A stretch of 64,000 nucleotides of DNA from NCBI GenBank assembly GCA_030447865.1, contig JAUJOD010000006.1, forward strand, positions 1 through 64,000, written 5' to 3'. This DNA comes from Nocardioidaceae bacterium. Its GTDB lineage: Bacteria; Actinomycetota; Actinomycetes; Propionibacteriales; Nocardioidaceae. Made by a program: the position numbers and the translations under genes. Positions 47,272-55,820 of this stretch are shown here, one piece after another (the stretch's first letter is position 1; the number at the start of each line of letters is the position of its first letter). A model generated the notes under the pieces. It made no database searches. It was not told the origin of the DNA and saw nothing but the letters and a program-made list of their open reading frames with translations.

Positions 47272-47660
47272 TGCGCCGCGACCAGCTCGAACACGCAAAC
47301 CGCACGGCGTACCAGATTATCCAGCAGCCGGAAGTCATCGTCGTGGGCTCGCAGGCGATCCTCGACACCGCTGTCCTGCCGGAGGGATGGCGTGACCGCC
47401 TGGTGAAGGTGCAGAACGCCAACACTGCCGCGCCCGCAGGCGAGCCGCGGTTCACGGGCTGGTGTCTCGACAAGGAAGACCTCTGCGTCGCCAAGCTCTG
47501 CGCCTTCCGCGAGAAGGGCCGCAACTTCGTCGCAGCACTTCTTAATCCTGGGCTGGTCGACGGCGAAATCATCTCGACCCGGCTCGGCGCGGTCCCCGAC
47601 GTGCACCTGACGGCAACCGGCCGGGCACTCTCATGGCTGGCGTCCAAGGCGTCGAGCTGA
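47271..47660 (+). pseudogene. DUF6036-like nucleotidyltransferase toxin with internal deletion
   Basis: 129 aa in frame. The start RRDQLEHANRTAYQIIQQPE then VIVVGSQAILDT and the end LPEGWRDRLVKVQNANTAAP, GWCLDKEDLCVAKLCAFREK belong to a protein that is normally about 190 aa. Between ILDT and VLPEGW some 60 residues are missing, including the segment that carries the acidic metal-binding residues (usually REVDxLP-like). The reading frame is preserved but the active site is gone. Encoded right behind the XRE gene, overlapping its stop. I recall the family pattern from memory; a database comparison would confirm it. Confidence 0.65.
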
Positions 47661-47792
47661 GGCCAAATCGTCGTCCATGCTCGGAACGCGATCGCAAGGC
47701 TTTCTGTGCCAGGTTGTCGTATCGGCGGGATGCCGTTCGTGGTGGGGGTAGCAGGCGGTCATCGGGACCGCCCAGAATTAAGGAGAAGTGAG

Positions 47793-48158
47793 ATGACGCA
47801 CTACTTGTTGAGCGTGCATGGCCCCGCCGAGAGGGACGAGTTCGGCAACTACGGCTCCAAGGAGGAGATGGAGGAGGCGTTCGCCGCGACCGGCGCCTTC
47901 AATGACAAGCTTCACGCCGATGGCTACTGGGTCTTCGCCGGTGGGCTTCAGTCGGCATCGACCGCGACCGTCGTCGACGGCCGGGGTGAGACGCCGGTGA
48001 TGACCGACGGCCCCTATCTTGAGACCAAGGAGGTCATCGGGGGTTTCTGGGTCATCGACGCGCCCGACCTCGACGTGGCGCTCAAGCTCGCGGCCGAGGG
48101 GTCCAAGGCGTGCCGGGGCAAGGTCGAGGTCCGTCCGTTCGACGGCCTCGCAACCTGA
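47793..48158 (+). CDS. YCII/DGPF-domain protein
   Basis: 121 aa. MTHYLLSVHGPAE, GGLQSASTATVVDGRGETPV and MTDGPYLETKEVIGGFWVID (the DGPF-type motif) then ALKLAAEGSKACRGKVEVRPF. Proteins of this type stand next to ECF sigma factors in actinobacteria and proteobacteria, as here. AAGGAG at 47780-47785 sets ATG 47793. The sigma factor that follows is broken, so the pair's regulatory link is lost. Confidence 0.9.
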   Translation: MTHYLLSVHGPAERDEFGNYGSKEEMEEAFAATGAFNDKLHADGYWVFAGGLQSASTATVVDGRGETPVMTDGPYLETKEVIGGFWVIDAPDLDVALKLAAEGSKACRGKVEVRPFDGLAT

Positions 48159-48182
48159 GCCGGCCCGAACCACGACTGATCG

Positions 48183-48735
48183 ATGCAGGGCGGAACGGCG
48201 GCCGTCGAGCGGGTCTTCCGCGAGGAGTACGGCCGCCTGATCGCTTCGCTCGTCCGCCGCTTCGGTGACATCGACATCGCAGAGGAGGCACTCGTGGCCG
48301 CGTTGGAGAAGCGGCCGGAGTCCGGCGTACCACCCAACCCCGGCGGCTGGCTCACCACCGCCACGGGCAACCGCGCGATCGACCGGATCCGCCGCGAGAA
48401 GCAGCGCGCCACGAAGCACCAGGCCGCCTTCATGTACCACGACGACACGCCCCACGAGCCCACCGGACCGGTCGAGGACGACCGATTGCGGCTGCTGTTC
48501 ACCTGCTGCCACCCGGCGCTCGCACCCGAGGCGCGGATCGCGCTGACGCTCCGCCTCCTCGGTGGTTGACTGTGGGTGAGATCGCGCAGGCGTTCCTCGT
48601 GCCGGAGACCACGATGGCGCAGCGGATCACCCGAGCGAAGAAGCAGATCGCGGCGGCGAAGGTGCCCCTATCGGGTGCCCGAGGCCGCCGACCTCATCGA
48701 GCGGCTCGGCGGCCATCTCCGACCCGCTCATTGGC
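48183..48735 (+). pseudogene. ECF-type RNA polymerase sigma factor (YCII-linked), two frameshifts and truncated
   Basis: ATG 48183 opens AAVERVFREEYGRLIASLVR and IDIAEEALVAALEKRPESGV (region 2), then DDRLRLLFTCCHPALAPEAR and ALTLRLLGG. A missing base near 48567 stops this frame. The next frame has VGEIAQAFLVPETTMAQRIT then RAKKQIAAAKVP (region 4), and an extra C near 48666 moves on to YRVPEAADLIERLGG. The protein then ends near 48735, while relatives run to about 400 aa. A clear corpse of the sigma factor that normally pairs with the YCII gene. Confidence 0.85.
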
Positions 48736-48786
48736 ATGAGCGACCGCACCGCGCCGTGAGCGGACGGGTCATGCGAGGGTTGCCCG

Positions 48787-49572
48787 GTGGCGAACACACT
48801 GGAAGGCGAAAGGCCCGCGGACTACCTCACGCGGTTGGCGGCATCCGACCTCGGTCGCAGCTACAAGTCGCTCATCGTTGAGGAGTTGGGCATCCGGCCA
48901 GGTGCCACGGTTCTCGACCTTGGTTGTGGCCCAGGTGCAGACTTAGCAGCGCTCGCGGAAGCCGTCGGCTCGACCGGCCGAGTGCTGGGCATCGACAACG
49001 ATGCCTCCGCGGTTGCGGAGGCGGTTCAGGCCGTCTCGGGCCTTCCTCAAGTCGAGGTCGAGGAGGGCGACGTTCATCACCTCGAACTGTCCGAGCGTTC
49101 TGTGGATCGGGTCCACACCGACCGAGTACTCCAGCATGTCGCGGACCCGAACGCTGTTGTGGCCGAGGCCGCCCGGGTCCTGCGCCCTAGAGGCATCGGT
49201 GGTTTCGCTGAGCCTGACTGGGACACTCTTGTGGTCGACTATCCCGACCCTGCGATCCCGATCGCGTACCGCCAATTCATCACCGACCGGGTCGTCCGCA
49301 ACTCCCGCATCGGCCGACAGGTTCCGGCGCTGTGTGAAGGCAACGGCCTTGTCCCAAACCGAGTCATCCCAATCACGGCGGTCTTCCGAGACGTAACGGA
49401 GGCAGACAGGATTTTCGGCTTCCAGCGAGTGACCCATCGGGCTGTTGCCGCCGAATACCTGACGGTAAAGCAGGGCGAATCATGGATCCACCACCTGCGC
49501 ACCGCGCGACTGTTCGCCTCGGTAACGCTCTTCGTCACCTTTGCTGAACGCAAGCCCGGAGACCCGGCGTGA
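48787..49572 (+). CDS. Class I SAM-dependent methyltransferase
   Basis: 261 aa. ATVLDLGCGPGADLAALAEA (motif I), RVLGIDNDASAVAEA, VEVEEGDVHHLELSERSVDR, then RVLQHVADPNAVVAEAARVL and RPRGIGGFAEPDW: the UbiE/COQ5-like small-molecule methyltransferase pattern. GTG 48787 has GAGGGTTGC upstream. A 7-bp hairpin follows. Substrate unknown. Intact, between broken genes. Confidence 0.88.
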   Translation: MANTLEGERPADYLTRLAASDLGRSYKSLIVEELGIRPGATVLDLGCGPGADLAALAEAVGSTGRVLGIDNDASAVAEAVQAVSGLPQVEVEEGDVHHLELSERSVDRVHTDRVLQHVADPNAVVAEAARVLRPRGIGGFAEPDWDTLVVDYPDPAIPIAYRQFITDRVVRNSRIGRQVPALCEGNGLVPNRVIPITAVFRDVTEADRIFGFQRVTHRAVAAEYLTVKQGESWIHHLRTARLFASVTLFVTFAERKPGDPA

Positions 49573-49575
49573 CCT

Positions 49576-49597
49576 CCCGCTCATCGGCACGAGCGGG
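49576..49597 (+). terminator. Hairpin after the methyltransferase gene
   Basis: CCCGCTC and GAGCGGG form a 7-bp stem with an 8-nt loop 4 nt after the stop, followed by CGTTTACG. Probable intrinsic terminator. Confidence 0.55.
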
Positions 49598-50085
49598 CGT
49601 TTACGTGATCGTCCTTGCGGCGACCCAGTGTCGCCTGCCGCTGTGCGCAGCAGGCACGGGAGCTCCTTGCCATTTCGTCTGCATGCACCTAGCGATCGAC
49701 TGAGGAGGAGCTGCCCGACGTGGCCAAGGCCGCGCACGCGGTGGTCACTCGCGGCGCTAAGAGGCAGCTCTGACGGCGCGAGAAGACCACCGGATGTGGT
49801 CCCATTTCCGGGATGAACGGGCCGGGGATGTGGTGCACGGCCGGCGTCCCGTAGAGGGTCCCGTTGTGGAACTTGGACTCGGACGGCTGTTGCGGGACGC
49901 TCAAGCACGGATAGGGGTTTGGCCAGCCTCCTTGCCGTTTGTGGTTGCTTACGGGAATCACGGCAAACATCCGGACAACGTCCGCTGCAGTCGCTGCGCT
50001 GAGCGCTAGCCCCATATGCCCTGGCAGTGCCCGCTGGATTGAGTCAAAGTCAACCCGTGCTGAGGTCGAGCGGTAGCGTGCGCGT
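49598..50085. other. Gene-free stretch
   Basis: No gene I can support on either strand. One minus-strand frame around 49770-49960 has a fairly protein-like composition (PNPYPCLSVPQQPSESKFHN) but no start, family or ribosome site. Confidence 0.4.
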
Positions 50086-50751
50086 GTGGTTCTCGCAGAA
50101 CGACTCGAGGGCGCCTGGCCGATCTTTGGACTCAGGCTCACGCTAGGCGACGTCGTCTTGCGCCATGTTCGCGAAGTGGATCTGCCGCACCTAGCGGTCA
50201 TCCAGCCCAAGGACTACGAGCATGATCCCCGAGCCGAGCCATTCCCTGGGCACGACCTCTGCCGGCATCGTCAGCGTCTGGTCTGCCAGGGCTAGTGGCG
50301 TTCGGTCGGCAACTGGTCGCCGGCGTCGTGGTGCCTCGACTTCATTGTTGAGTACCGCGGTGAGGTGGTGGGCGTGCAGTCGCTGGAGGCGGTCCAGTTC
50401 CTCGACCTCCGAACGGTCGACTCCGGCTCCTGGCTGATTGCGGCGGCTCGTGGTCGCGGCATCGGTGTCGCCATGCGACAAGCCGTGCTGGTTCTCGCTT
50501 TCGACCATCTTGGGGCACGGGCAGCCGTCTCCTCGGCCCGGGCGGACAACGAGGCGTCGCTGGCCGTATCACGACGGCTTGGCTATCGGGACAATGGCGT
50601 CAGTCTGAACGCCGGAGACCGCGGCATCGTCGAACTCCGGCACATGAGGCTGACTATGGAGGAATGGAAAGCGTCCGGCCGCTCGCGACAGGTCGAGGTG
50701 CCTGGACTTGAGCCTTGCCTCTCCTGGTTCGGTCTCGACCATCCCGCGTGA
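50086..50751 (+). pseudogene. GNAT-family N-acetyltransferase with an in-frame amber codon
   Basis: GTG 50086 starts VVLAERLEGAWPIFGLRLTL. At 50293-50295 a TAG interrupts the frame, and the same frame goes on with WRSVGNWSPASWCLDFIVEY, GVQSLEAVQFLDLRTVDSGS, AAARGRGIGVAMRQAVLVLA (acetyl-CoA loop RGRGIG) and ARADNEASLAVSRRLGYRDN. In this acetyltransferase type the interrupted spot reads YWRSVG, so TAC or TAT became TAG. Single point mutation, otherwise complete at about 221 codons. Confidence 0.85.
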
Positions 50752-50789
50752 CGATCGCTCAGAAGCGGGGTCTGGTGGACTGACAGACC

Positions 50790-51142
50790 GCAGCGTCGAC
50801 CCGGAAGTTAGCCGTCGAGCGTCTGGTACCGAACAGTGCAAACAGGTACGACGCCTTGCCGAGCGACGGCTGACCGGCGGCATGCGCCGTGGGGTCGTCA
50901 CCGTCGGTGGGGCGGCGGAGGCGGCACGGAAACGCCGTAACCAGGTCATCCACCAGGACTGGCTGCTGCGAGGACCCGACGCCATGCGCCCGGTCGCTGA
51001 CCTCAACGATGTCGCGCCGCAGGGCCTGCCTGCGCACCTTGAGGCGTGGGAACGTGAGTCCAAGCGTCCCAAGACTGGGAGCAGGTACCAGCCCACACCC
51101 TTGACGTCCTTCCTGCGCAGACCCTCGAGGACCTTCGGCTAG
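50790..51142 (+). pseudogene. Remnant of a small helical (HEPN-like?) protein
   Basis: EAARKRRNQVIHQDWLLRGP and MRPVADLNDVAPQGLPAHLE in one frame, then after about 51062 SQDWEQVPAHTLDVLPAQTL and EDLRLG to a stop in the next frame. RNQVIH fits R-x4-H. There is no start of gene upstream. Fragment of an unidentified gene with a frameshift. Confidence 0.45.
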
Positions 51143-51227
51143 GGTCGGGCCAAGAGCGGCGATTTTCGCCGACGACCGGAGGAGGTGAGTCCCATTTTCC
51201 CTTTCCGAACGACTGGAAGGCAGTTCC

Positions 51228-52087
51228 ATGGCGCTCACTCCGACGACCACCTTCGCCACCGCCGATGACGGTGCACGTCTCGCCGCCCACCTGATCGGCG
51301 CAGGGTCGCCACTCCTGTGCTTGCCCGGGGGCCTTCTGCTCGATGCCGCCTATCTTGGCGACCTCGGCGGCCTCTCGTCGCATCGCCGTCTCGTGCTCCT
51401 CGATCCTCGGGGGAGCGGAGCCTCCGACCACAGCGACAATCCGACCGCGTACCGCTGCGACCGCATGGTCGCCGACGTGGAGGCGCTGCGCCGCCACCTG
51501 GGCCTTGACGCGATCGATCTGCTCGCCCACTCGGCCGGCGCCAACCTCGCCTACCGATACGCCGAACGCCATCCTGACCGGGTCGGCCGACTCGTGCTGG
51601 TGACGCCAAGTGTGTTCGCACTGGGCATCGCCGTCCCCGACTCAGCCCGGCGCGAGATCGCTCTGCTGCGCAAGGACGAGTCTTGGTATGTCGAGGCGGC
51701 AGCGGCGTTGACGTCGATCCAGAACGGTGCCGCGACGGAGGAAGACTGGGCGGCCATTACGCCATTCACCTACGGCCGGTGGGATGACACTGCACGGGCC
51801 ACCATGCCTTGATGGAGGCGCAGCGCAACCCCGACGCCGCGGCCGCGTTCGTCGCCGAAGGCGCCTTCGACCCGCCGGCCACTCGCGCCGCGCTGGCCGC
51901 CTTGGACGCACCTGTCCTGGTACTGGCGGGCGGCTGGGATGTGGGCAACCCCCCGCGAGTCATGGCCCAGGTGGCTGAACTCTTCCCTCGGGCGCAGCTC
52001 GTCGTCCAGCCCGAAGCCGGTCACTTTCCCTGGGTGGATCACGCTGCCCGGTTCCGCCAGCTGATTACATCCTTCCTGCCCGAGTGA
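51228..52087 (+). pseudogene. Alpha/beta hydrolase, frameshifted
   Basis: ATG 51228 begins ALTPTTTFATADDGARLAAH and contains LLCLPGGLLLDAAYLGDLGG, VLLDPRGSGASD and the nucleophile elbow LLAHSAGANLAYRYAERHP. The frame stops at 51812. The next frame resumes HHALMEAQRNPDAAAAFVAE, VLVLAGGWDVGNPP and QPEAGHFPWVD (catalytic Asp region and His), ending at 52087. One C is missing from GGGCC near 51798. Restored length is about 286 aa. Confidence 0.85.
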
Positions 52088-52279
52088 CTCAGCTTCGCCG
52101 CCAACGAAGAGCATCGAGGGCGGCACGCCATCGGTTGACGGGCATTGGCGGCGGACAGACGCACCTCTGGGCGGCATGAGTGGTCGGGCGTAGGCAACCA
52201 GACTCAGAACCCGAAGGTTCCAGACAGGCTCTCGTCGGTGGCGAATAGCCTGGGGATCCTTCGAGTCAAGGGTGACAAC

Positions 52280-53089
52280 GTGGACAAGCAGTGGATCCCG
52301 GCGCGGTTGCGAGAATCCCTTACCGCCCTTGTCGCCGCTTGTAAGGACGACCCTGGGGTCTTGGCTGCGTGGGTAGGAGGCTCCCTTGCGCGGGACACGG
52401 CAGACGATTGGAGTGACATTGACCTGCATCTCCTCGTAGCTCACCCCGAGGAGTTCGGCAGCGGCATCACCGACTGGTTCGCTCGAACGATGCCTGCGGT
52501 GTTGGCCGACGAGATCCCGGGCGTACCGGGTGGCTTCATGTTCGTGACGCCCGATTGGATCCACGTCGACGTCATCGTTCACGGCAGCCAGACGTTCTCT
52601 CAAGATGAGTTCCCCGCCCGGGTGCTGCTCGACCCCCACGGCCTCGTGCGAGACATCCCCGCGTCCGCTGAGCAGATGGTGGGCGAACCCTACCTCCCGC
52701 ACGATCAGATCCAGCTGTACCTCTACTTTATGGGCGTCACGGTCACCGTGATCCATCGGCGCGAGTGGCTTGCTCTCGCCCAAGGCGCTGCCGGCTTCAG
52801 GGATTCGCTCCTCATCCCGCTGATGCTCGCCGAGAACGGCGTTCGAAAGACCGATGGAGCCAAACGACTAAATCGCTACCTCACTGCCGAACAGATCGCA
52901 GCACTACAGGCGATCCCACCCATCGGCTCGAACCCCGAGCAGCTGATCAACGCCCATACAGCCATCGCCCGGGAATACCTCACACGAGGGCGTCGTCTCG
53001 CCGCAGCGCTCAATCAAACATGGCCCACAGCGCTCGAACAAGCCTCCCTCGCCCTCTGGCGACGCGAGCTCGGCATCAACCTTGAGTAG
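52280..53089 (+). CDS. Aminoglycoside adenylyltransferase-like nucleotidyltransferase
   Basis: 269 aa. AAWVGGSLARDTADDWSDID is the GS...D-x-D nucleotidyltransferase site, with a third Asp in IHVDVIVHG. The C-terminal half is helical (IQLYLYFMGVTVTVIHRREW, ALAQGAAGFRDSLLIPLMLA). Related to AadK/streptomycin adenylyltransferase-type proteins. GTG 52280 preceded by AAGGG. Intact and not next to a HEPN or XRE gene, so it is not a toxin-antitoxin partner. Confidence 0.75.
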   Translation: MDKQWIPARLRESLTALVAACKDDPGVLAAWVGGSLARDTADDWSDIDLHLLVAHPEEFGSGITDWFARTMPAVLADEIPGVPGGFMFVTPDWIHVDVIVHGSQTFSQDEFPARVLLDPHGLVRDIPASAEQMVGEPYLPHDQIQLYLYFMGVTVTVIHRREWLALAQGAAGFRDSLLIPLMLAENGVRKTDGAKRLNRYLTAEQIAALQAIPPIGSNPEQLINAHTAIAREYLTRGRRLAAALNQTWPTALEQASLALWRRELGINLE

Positions 53090-53239
53090 GCGGGGTATGA
53101 CACTGGCCCCGTCGCGGCGAGATGACGCACATTGCGACGTGACAGGTCACGTGCTCGGATCGCGGCGTAGAAACACGTTCTGCTGCGGGAACTGACTGCC
53201 TGGCTGGGGGGTTGACGTGCGTCGTGATTGAGTGGCCGC

Positions 53240-53916
53240 GTGTTCACGACGATCTTGCTGGACCTGGACGGCGTGCTCAAGGTGCCTGATCACGGCTGGA
53301 TCTTGGCCACGATGGACGACCTGGGCTTCTCAGTCAGCCTGGAACAGGCCGAGTCGTGCCATTACCTCGGGATCAGGCGGTTCGACGAATCTGCACGCCA
53401 GCCGCTTCGGCAGGACTACGAACGGTGCTATCCCGAAGGGGTACGTGCGCGTTTCGACCAAGAGATCTCAACGCATAGCGGACGATCTCAGGATCTGGCT
53501 TGGACAGACCGACGACCGAGGACTCGACCACCAACGCCAGCGGCCCACCGGCTACCTGGGTCAGTTCGTGGTGTGTGAGCCAGTCGACAGCACCTGGTCG
53601 TTGGTTCTGCGTGATCGCAGCCAGTTGGAGACCCGCAGCCGCCCACGCGCGCAGCGCGTTCGCCGAGCCAGGGGTCACCATGGAGCGTCGGAAGGCTGCA
53701 CCGAAGAGCAGGTGCTGCCTGACTTGTGGCCATTGCGGTGTCGGCACTCCAAGCGCCTGAGATGAAGCGGTGTACGTCGGCGACGGCCTTCGCTTGGATG
53801 CACCGGCAGCCTGTGGAGCAGGAGTCTCCTTCATCCACCTGACGCCTCTCGGAGACTGCTCCTGTGCCCATCCTCATCTGCGCGGAGTTGGCAGTGACGA
53901 CCTGCCCGTTGATTGA
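53240..53916 (+). pseudogene. HAD-family hydrolase with its middle segment inverted
   Basis: The plus strand encodes the N-terminus (FTTILLDLDGVLKVPDHGWI, then LRQDYERCYPEGVRARFDQ) up to about 53460 and the C-terminus (DEAVYVGDGLRLDAPAACGA, GVSFIHLTPLGDC) from 53761 to 53916. The central part is present but on the minus strand between about 53755 and 53465: RQHLLFGAAFRRSMVTPGSA, LQLAAITQNQ, VVGLSKPDPEIVRYALRSLG. Together the three parts make one ordinary HAD phosphatase of about 210 aa with DxD, Ser/Thr, Lys and GD motifs. GAGATCTC (left junction) and GAGAT (right junction, near 53758) may have been the crossover points. Confidence 0.75.
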
Positions 53917-54097
53917 TAACCCAGCAGCTACGCCAGGCCGCAGCTTCCTGGCGCGCTCGTTGCGGCAGACGAGTACGTCTGTTGAGTCGCGAGAGGAACG
54001 CCGCAGTGCGACGGCTCTTGCCCATTGCCTCAGAGCCCGAGACGGCGAAGGCCTCCTGACTCGCGTTTCCGCAGTTCAGGAAGCCTTTGCACGGTTG

Positions 54098-54170
54098 TAG
54101 CCCCGACGGGATTCGAACCCGCGCTACCGCCTTGAGAGGGCGGCGTGCTAGGCCGCTACACAACGGGGCC
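54098..54170 (-). tRNA. tRNA-Glu (CTC)
   Basis: 73 nt. Acceptor GGCCCCG pairs with CGGGGCT (one G-U). The anticodon loop contains CTC and the T-arm reads GGTTCGAATCCC. No encoded CCA. Next to tRNA-Gln and in the neighbourhood of gltX, as in other actinobacteria. Confidence 0.95.
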
Positions 54171-54216
54171 ATCGAGCGGACGAGACTGTATCGGACCGCG
54201 GCCCGTTGTCTCATCG

Positions 54217-54288
54217 CTGGGGTACTAGGACTCGAACCTAGACTAACTGGACCAGAACCAGTCGGGCTGCCAATTACCCCATACCCCA
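54217..54288 (-). tRNA. tRNA-Gln (CTG)
   Basis: 72 nt. Acceptor TGGGGTA pairs with TACCCCA, discriminator G. D-arm has the usual GGTAATTGGCAG, the anticodon loop TTCTGGT with CTG, T-arm GGTTCGAGTCC. Transcribed toward tRNA-Glu, 46 bp apart. Confidence 0.96.
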
Positions 54289-54460
54289 TGGGTAGTCGGC
54301 GCCCGCTCGGACGCCGACGCCCGACGATACCGGAGGCGACTGACGGGTTCCAAAGCGCCGCCGAGGGCTAACTCGAGGCGGTCTTGGCTGCTGGGTAAAC
54401 AACGGGCTTGAGTCCGGTCTAGGCGAGTTGCTTCCCCGCGCTATGGCTGGCTGGCGAGGG

Positions 54461-55627
54461 TCACCGCTGGTAGCGGATCAGTTGGCCGGCTTGCTTTGCC
54501 GCGAGATTCAGCGCAGGGCCGAGCTCAGCGTCCACCGCGGCTTGCATCTCAGCATCCATCACGACCGCGGCTGACTCGGCCGGCCTGCTCGCGAGCAGCC
54601 GGATGCGCAACGGCGTCGCCGGATGAGAGTCGTCGATGCGGCTTGCCTGCATGGGCGGCGCCGACCGGCGACGGAGAACGTCCTCCTGCGAGAGAGCGGC
54701 CATGTCCGCCGACACCATCGCCCACATGTCCGGGCGGTCCGGGCTCACAGCCGCTCTGGTCATAGCCGTTTCCACCCTCGGTTCGCTGAGAAGCACATCG
54801 AGCAGGGCCAACGCGCCGTCGCTCCCGCCCGCTCTCGCGGCGTCCAGATCGGCCAGGTACTCCTGGCGCTGGCGAGCTGGTGCATTGATCCAGGCGATCA
54901 CGATGAGGTAGGCCATGATCAGTGCGCGAAGCGGTGCCATCAGATACGTCTGGACGAAGTCGACTCCCCCGTACACGACGTTCCGCATCCCGCCGGCGAT
55001 ATCAAGCCAGTGGAAGAGGGTCTCCTCAGCGCTGCCAACCCACCGACTATGGGTGAGATCACCGTGCGCGAAATGCCCTAACTCGTGACCGATGAGCGCC
55101 ACCCGCGCCTGCGGCGAGGCAGCAACCCAGAGCGGCGCCCCGAGACCGAGGATGCGACGCCGCCGCCACCCAGCGTGGAAGGCGAATGCGTTGAACGAGT
55201 CGACGATCAGGACCTCGTGCGGCATTGGCGCGCCGTTGGTTCCGGCTACCGCCCGCAGCAACCCAAACAGTTCCGGTGAGTCGGCGCTGGTCAGCAGTAC
55301 GACGTGCGGTGGCCGTCTCGGCGCCTGCGGCCGGATGCCGATGGCGACTAGCAGGAGCGCGACACCGAGTCCGCGGACCATCCAGTTGTCTCCGCGCACG
55401 AGCAACACCAGGCCGCCGAGCGCCGCGGCGATGGTCAGGGCATGGACGGGCAGGACTACAAGGAAGGCCAGCAGTTGCCACCAGAACGTCACGCCACGAC
55501 TGCCTGGTCGAGCTCCACCGAGCCGAGCCAAGTGCCGCTCGGCCATCCGGTCCACCAGGTCGCGCTCCACGCGTTGCAGCCAGTTCGGCCGGGCGTCGAG
55601 GTCGGTGGCCACTCCCCGATTCTGCAC
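54461..55627 (-). CDS. M48-family (HtpX-like) membrane metalloprotease
   Basis: 388 aa. Two N-terminal membrane helices (FWWQLLAFLVVLPVHALTIA and WMVRGLGVALLLVAIGI), the zinc motif HELGH (in VALIGHELGHFAHGD) and the downstream Glu in RQEYLADLDAA. M48 proteases clear damaged membrane proteins. A further amphipathic segment (RALIMAYLIVIAWINAPAR) precedes the third ligand. ATG 55627 was taken. Intact, single gene downstream of the tRNAs. Confidence 0.88.
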   Translation of the reverse strand: MQNRGVATDLDARPNWLQRVERDLVDRMAERHLARLGGARPGSRGVTFWWQLLAFLVVLPVHALTIAAALGGLVLLVRGDNWMVRGLGVALLLVAIGIRPQAPRRPPHVVLLTSADSPELFGLLRAVAGTNGAPMPHEVLIVDSFNAFAFHAGWRRRRILGLGAPLWVAASPQARVALIGHELGHFAHGDLTHSRWVGSAEETLFHWLDIAGGMRNVVYGGVDFVQTYLMAPLRALIMAYLIVIAWINAPARQRQEYLADLDAARAGGSDGALALLDVLLSEPRVETAMTRAAVSPDRPDMWAMVSADMAALSQEDVLRRRSAPPMQASRIDDSHPATPLRIRLLASRPAESAAVVMDAEMQAAVDAELGPALNLAAKQAGQLIRYQR

Positions 55628-55820
55628 ACAATGCCCAACCGTGCGGCCGTGGGTCAGAGGCGCGCGACGTACTGATGGACTGACGTAGAGGCGCGAAGCC
55701 CCTCCCCCGACCGATCCGCGCGACAGGTAAACGAAATGTCATCTGGTGGCACTTTATTCACCCGCGGCGTCGCGGCCGGACACTCGCCGATAAGCGGGGA
55801 GCTTCTCGGTGGTCGACGAG

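Follow-up and report, generated by a model that had tools for sequence, protein, structure and literature searches.

The HAD hydrolase locus at 53228-53916 of the 64-kb window (the whole 64,000-nucleotide stretch of DNA analysed here) is, in the assembled sequence and far beyond chance, one HAD hydrolase gene with a reversed middle, and an irreversible, illegitimate micro-inversion of about 311 bp probably made a young pseudogene of it. No single open frame encodes the HAD protein in this interval; there are instead three open pieces, within which we delimit three parts of the gene:

53228-53575, plus strand: first open piece, beginning VFTTILLDLDGVL from the GTG at 53240
53376-53873, minus strand: second open piece, containing SKPDPEIVRYALRSLG
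53761-53913, plus strand: third open piece, DEAVYVGDGLRLD
53240..53448, plus strand: N-terminal piece of the HAD hydrolase (homologue-only HMM and joint scan)
53449..53759, minus strand: inverted middle piece (PF00702 match, HMM, and joint scan)
53760..53916, plus strand: C-terminal piece (homologue-only HMM)

The N-terminal piece starts with the GTG at 53240 (the TTG at 53228 is a possible alternative) and spans motif I 'TTILLDLDGVL' to about 'CYPEGVR'; the middle piece reads 'QALGVPTPQW ... AAITQN ... SKPDPEIVRYALRSLG(RNA)' on the minus strand, in a frame that is free of stops and coding-like in GC by codon position (0.73/0.52/0.69); and the C-terminal piece reads '(A)DEAVYVGDGLRLDAPAACGAGVSFIHLTPLGDCSCAHPHLRGVGSDDLPVD*', where 'DEAVYVGDGLRLD' is motif IV.

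A family HMM built from ten intact relatives, with the query itself omitted, was run on all six-frame open stretches of at least 20 residues in the window. The three pieces are its three best matches there, the fourth-best having an E value of 1: i) the minus-strand piece 53376-53873 matches profile positions 64-171 (E 2.4e-12); ii) the plus-strand piece 53761-53913 matches positions 172-217 (E 2.5e-9); and iii) the plus-strand piece 53228-53575 matches positions 2-67 (E 5e-5). The pieces thus tile the family profile, sharing positions 64-67 at one joint and abutting at 171/172 at the other. The middle piece alone, read on the minus strand, matches PF00702 at 30.9 bits (profile 95-171, above the gathering score), Pfam searches of the N-terminal piece alone and the C-terminal piece alone give no match, and the composite with the middle flipped scores 57-60 bits, also above the gathering score, from position 2 or 3 to 191 of the 191-position profile; flipping the middle therefore roughly doubles the PF00702 score. 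Taken together, the three HMM pieces and the full-length PF00702 match of the flipped composite identify the gene as a single HAD hydrolase whose middle is reversed. The plus, minus, plus arrangement at 53240-53916 proposed in the initial annotation is borne out by both the HMM tiling and the rise in PF00702 score, and, as expected of an inversion pseudogene, the segment is reversed relative to intact homologues with both joints inside the gene.

Intact single-frame relatives are present in other Actinobacteria (L006, L008, L079, L080, L081, and L082), and match the flipped composite from about residue 4 to residue 226 at 30-36% identity. These relatives were collected using the flipped composite as the query, which introduces a mild circularity, although every one of them is a single uninterrupted frame in a genome other than this one. 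We were unable to find a close intact orthologue, the best relative being about 36% identical in amino acid sequence; a second copy of the gene, intact or otherwise, in the same genome; a useful DNA-level match in 58 related genomes; or any match in a plasmid search. Among 342 genomes of the family searched with the protein at 1e-9, one other gave a match, and that partial and distant; NCBIfam gave weak superfamily matches only, far under the cut-offs for an enzyme assignment.

Like HAD superfamily hydrolases (PF00702; HAD-IA-like), the flipped composite has the DxDGV motif I, the AITQN T/S motif, the K of SKPDP, and GDxxxxD. As encoded, however, the four catalytic motifs are spread over plus, minus, and plus pieces, and no one protein carries them all, so that a normal enzyme would not be expected from this sequence and the locus is best regarded as a pseudogene of the HAD family rather than a working member. 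The earlier suggestion that an internal inversion had inactivated the gene is well supported.

The right joint is well fixed at 53758-53760, and the left joint lies somewhere about 53448-53460. On the minus strand the middle piece starts CAGGCGCTTGG, its last plus-strand base being 53759, and the C-terminal piece runs from 53760/53761. Because the closest intact orthologue is only about 36% identical, the ancestral joints had to be inferred from family spacing, and we scored breakpoint choices in a joint scan that permitted missing bases. The optimum (114 bits) places the left edge at 53448-53451 with one base missing, and with that one base missing the right joint reads ALRSLG-RNA-DEAVYVGD at the family's own spacing; the runner-up (113 bits) places the left edge at 53455-53457 with 7 bases missing; and a left edge to the right of the GAGATCTC palindrome scores clearly lower. 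The alternative accounts are thus a 311-bp inversion with 1 base missing and a 302-bp inversion with about 7-10 missing. On these scores we prefer, by a small margin, a 311-bp inversion at 53449-53759; an account with a loss of about 10 bases at the right joint gave way to this better-scoring segment with its one missing base. The inversion had been placed at about 53465-53755 in the initial annotation, which recognised it correctly but set edges that we refine to near 53449 and 53759. Two short sequences near the joints need to be located relative to these edges:

53462..53469, no strand assigned: GAGATCTC palindrome, inside the inverted piece; the family alignment runs through it
53758..53763, plus strand: TGAGAT, a 6-bp inverted match to ATCTCA at 53465-53470

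The palindrome lies within the inverted segment, about 10-13 bp from its edge, and encodes the 'RS' of ALRSLG; since the minus-strand alignment through AGA TCT CTT GG(T) as R S L G fits the family, GAGATCTC belongs to the inverted piece.

These positions bear directly on whether the segment is a reversible intragenic inverton, flipping via short inverted sites and now caught in the OFF state, a class of element that has already been described (Chanin et al. 2024, cited in PMC11868660). The HAD gene resembles such invertons in having reversed DNA inside a coding gene, but differs in lacking inverted repeats at the joints, restoration of the frame by a flip, and a recognised adjacent invertase. 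Specifically, i) no inverted match exceeds 4 bp when 15 bp around the best joints are considered (P about 0.95), the ATCTCA/TGAGAT pair, although 6 bp long, is at chance level (about 20% of random pairs of positions would have such a match nearby), between 20 and 95% of random position pairs in the window show inverted matches of 4-6 bp, according to how wide a flank is taken, and a search of 52800-54400 for longer inverted repeats returned chance-level pairs only, none bracketing the segment; ii) the N- and C-terminal pieces differ in phase by 2, and therefore no length-neutral flip, whatever its breakpoints, can restore the frame (0 of 6,000 breakpoint pairs gave an open frame), so that at least one base must have been lost or changed; and iii) no gene flanking the locus was recognised as an invertase, and the serine-recombinase-family matches in the genome, three above cut-off and one weaker, are all on other contigs, the three nonetheless being proteins that might in principle serve such a switch. 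The argument from phase, though strong, is not absolute, as a length-neutral inversion could in principle be masked by a sequencing error of one base; the absence of repeats at the joints is evidence independent of it. Nor is there support for GAGATCTC and GAGAT as the crossover sites at the junctions, as had been proposed: GAGATCTC sits within the segment rather than at a junction, the 6-bp pair is no better than chance, and crossover there would put the joints out of frame. An in-silico flip of the middle, as recommended along with that proposal, does yield a full-length HAD match, but a flip at the proposed sites (53465-53763) has neither joint in frame, and its middle ends in 'ALR*'. We consider a reversible on/off switch very improbable, and least probable of all the readings a phase-variable enzyme gene whose middle is turned by an unrecognised recombinase able to work with very short inverted repeats or none at all; on that reading the one-base phase mismatch would be a sequencing error, like that suspected in the neighbouring gene. 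As a separate observation, a PF00239 serine-recombinase-family match elsewhere in the genome, at G000:C3:614097-614447 (L117), has two internal stop codons and appears to be a decayed recombinase.

The main rival to a fixed inversion is misassembly, in which the gene is an ordinary HAD gene in the cell and its reversed middle is the product of an assembler or of chimeric amplification; we regard this as unlikely, if less so than a switch. An artefact would need two clean joints 311 bp apart in unique, repeat-free sequence, where assemblers have little cause to flip a segment, and amplification chimeras usually have one inverted joint, not two. It is favoured by the genome being a 9-contig draft, by a one-base frameshift in a neighbouring gene that could signal sequence error, and by the many false short-read inversion calls in an E. 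coli study, which concerned variant calling rather than assembly (PMC10292909). One might also suppose that there was no inversion, and that pieces of two different HAD genes lie side by side on opposite strands, given that the joints are inexact and that the pieces share no more than about 30-36% identity with known relatives. Against this, the pieces cover a single profile almost without overlap or gap, the right joint is readable at the family's own spacing, and the genome is without a second HAD copy of this kind; a two-gene origin is accordingly a shade less probable even than a switch.

The gene is accessory cargo in a variable stretch of about 47.3-54.0 kb. Its surroundings, in order, are:

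51228-52087, upstream of the HAD gene: alpha/beta hydrolase, its halves in different frames (Abhydrolase_6 2-141 and 148-216)
52205-53086, upstream of the HAD gene: nucleotidyltransferase-domain protein
downstream of the HAD gene: tRNA-Glu, tRNA-Gln, M48 peptidase, and VanW-domain protein

In a genome of the same genus (G001, L125) the VanW gene directly follows tRNA-Glu and tRNA-Gln, and the HAD, nucleotidyltransferase, alpha/beta hydrolase, and M48 genes are all absent from this tRNA locus, which makes the HAD gene accessory. DNA similarity between that genome and the window starts at about 54022 and is interrupted at 54490-55717; variable stretches, about 47300-54022 and 54490-55717, thus flank the conserved tRNA-Glu/tRNA-Gln pair, which is kept in other family members too. 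The alpha/beta hydrolase has an apparent one-base frameshift near 51795-51812, and is another young pseudogene unless the sequence there is in error.

Returning to the fixed micro-inversion that we favour, the HAD hydrolase gene would have been acquired by horizontal transfer beside the tRNA-Glu/tRNA-Gln pair and then disrupted when a single small stretch of about 311 bp was inverted. Neither a site-specific recombinase nor homologous recombination is likely to have been the agent, because both need inverted sites and none are seen. Illegitimate repair, whether of two breaks with the fragment end-joined backwards or in a microhomology/template-switch event, would fit better, because homology at the joints is short or absent and one or more bases are missing on balance; at least one base would have been lost or changed at a joint. 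Thus the route may have been end joining, template switching, or microhomology-mediated repair. Ku is encoded in the genome, and a search of the genome for LigD_N found none, which weakens the classical Ku/LigD route. A literature search on end-joining inversions in bacteria found nothing. For micro-inversions in primates, the proposed causes are template switching and break repair (PMC8755829); the human/chimpanzee examples are likewise small reversed segments, but are 17-33 bp long and all have flanking inverted repeats, whereas the HAD inversion is about 311 bp long and has none. All three pieces retain an open frame of their own, which suggests that the inversion was recent, and we infer that the outcome is a stable young pseudogene, irreversible in the population and without its original function.

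The inversion has no wider functional consequence; it is an ordinary though uncommon route to gene loss. It is of interest as a clean bacterial case in which a small inversion inside a gene, with no long repeats involved, has inactivated it. Ordinary annotation would miss such an event, reporting short unrelated ORFs on both strands, and the case shows that searches for pseudogenes should permit pieces on opposite strands.
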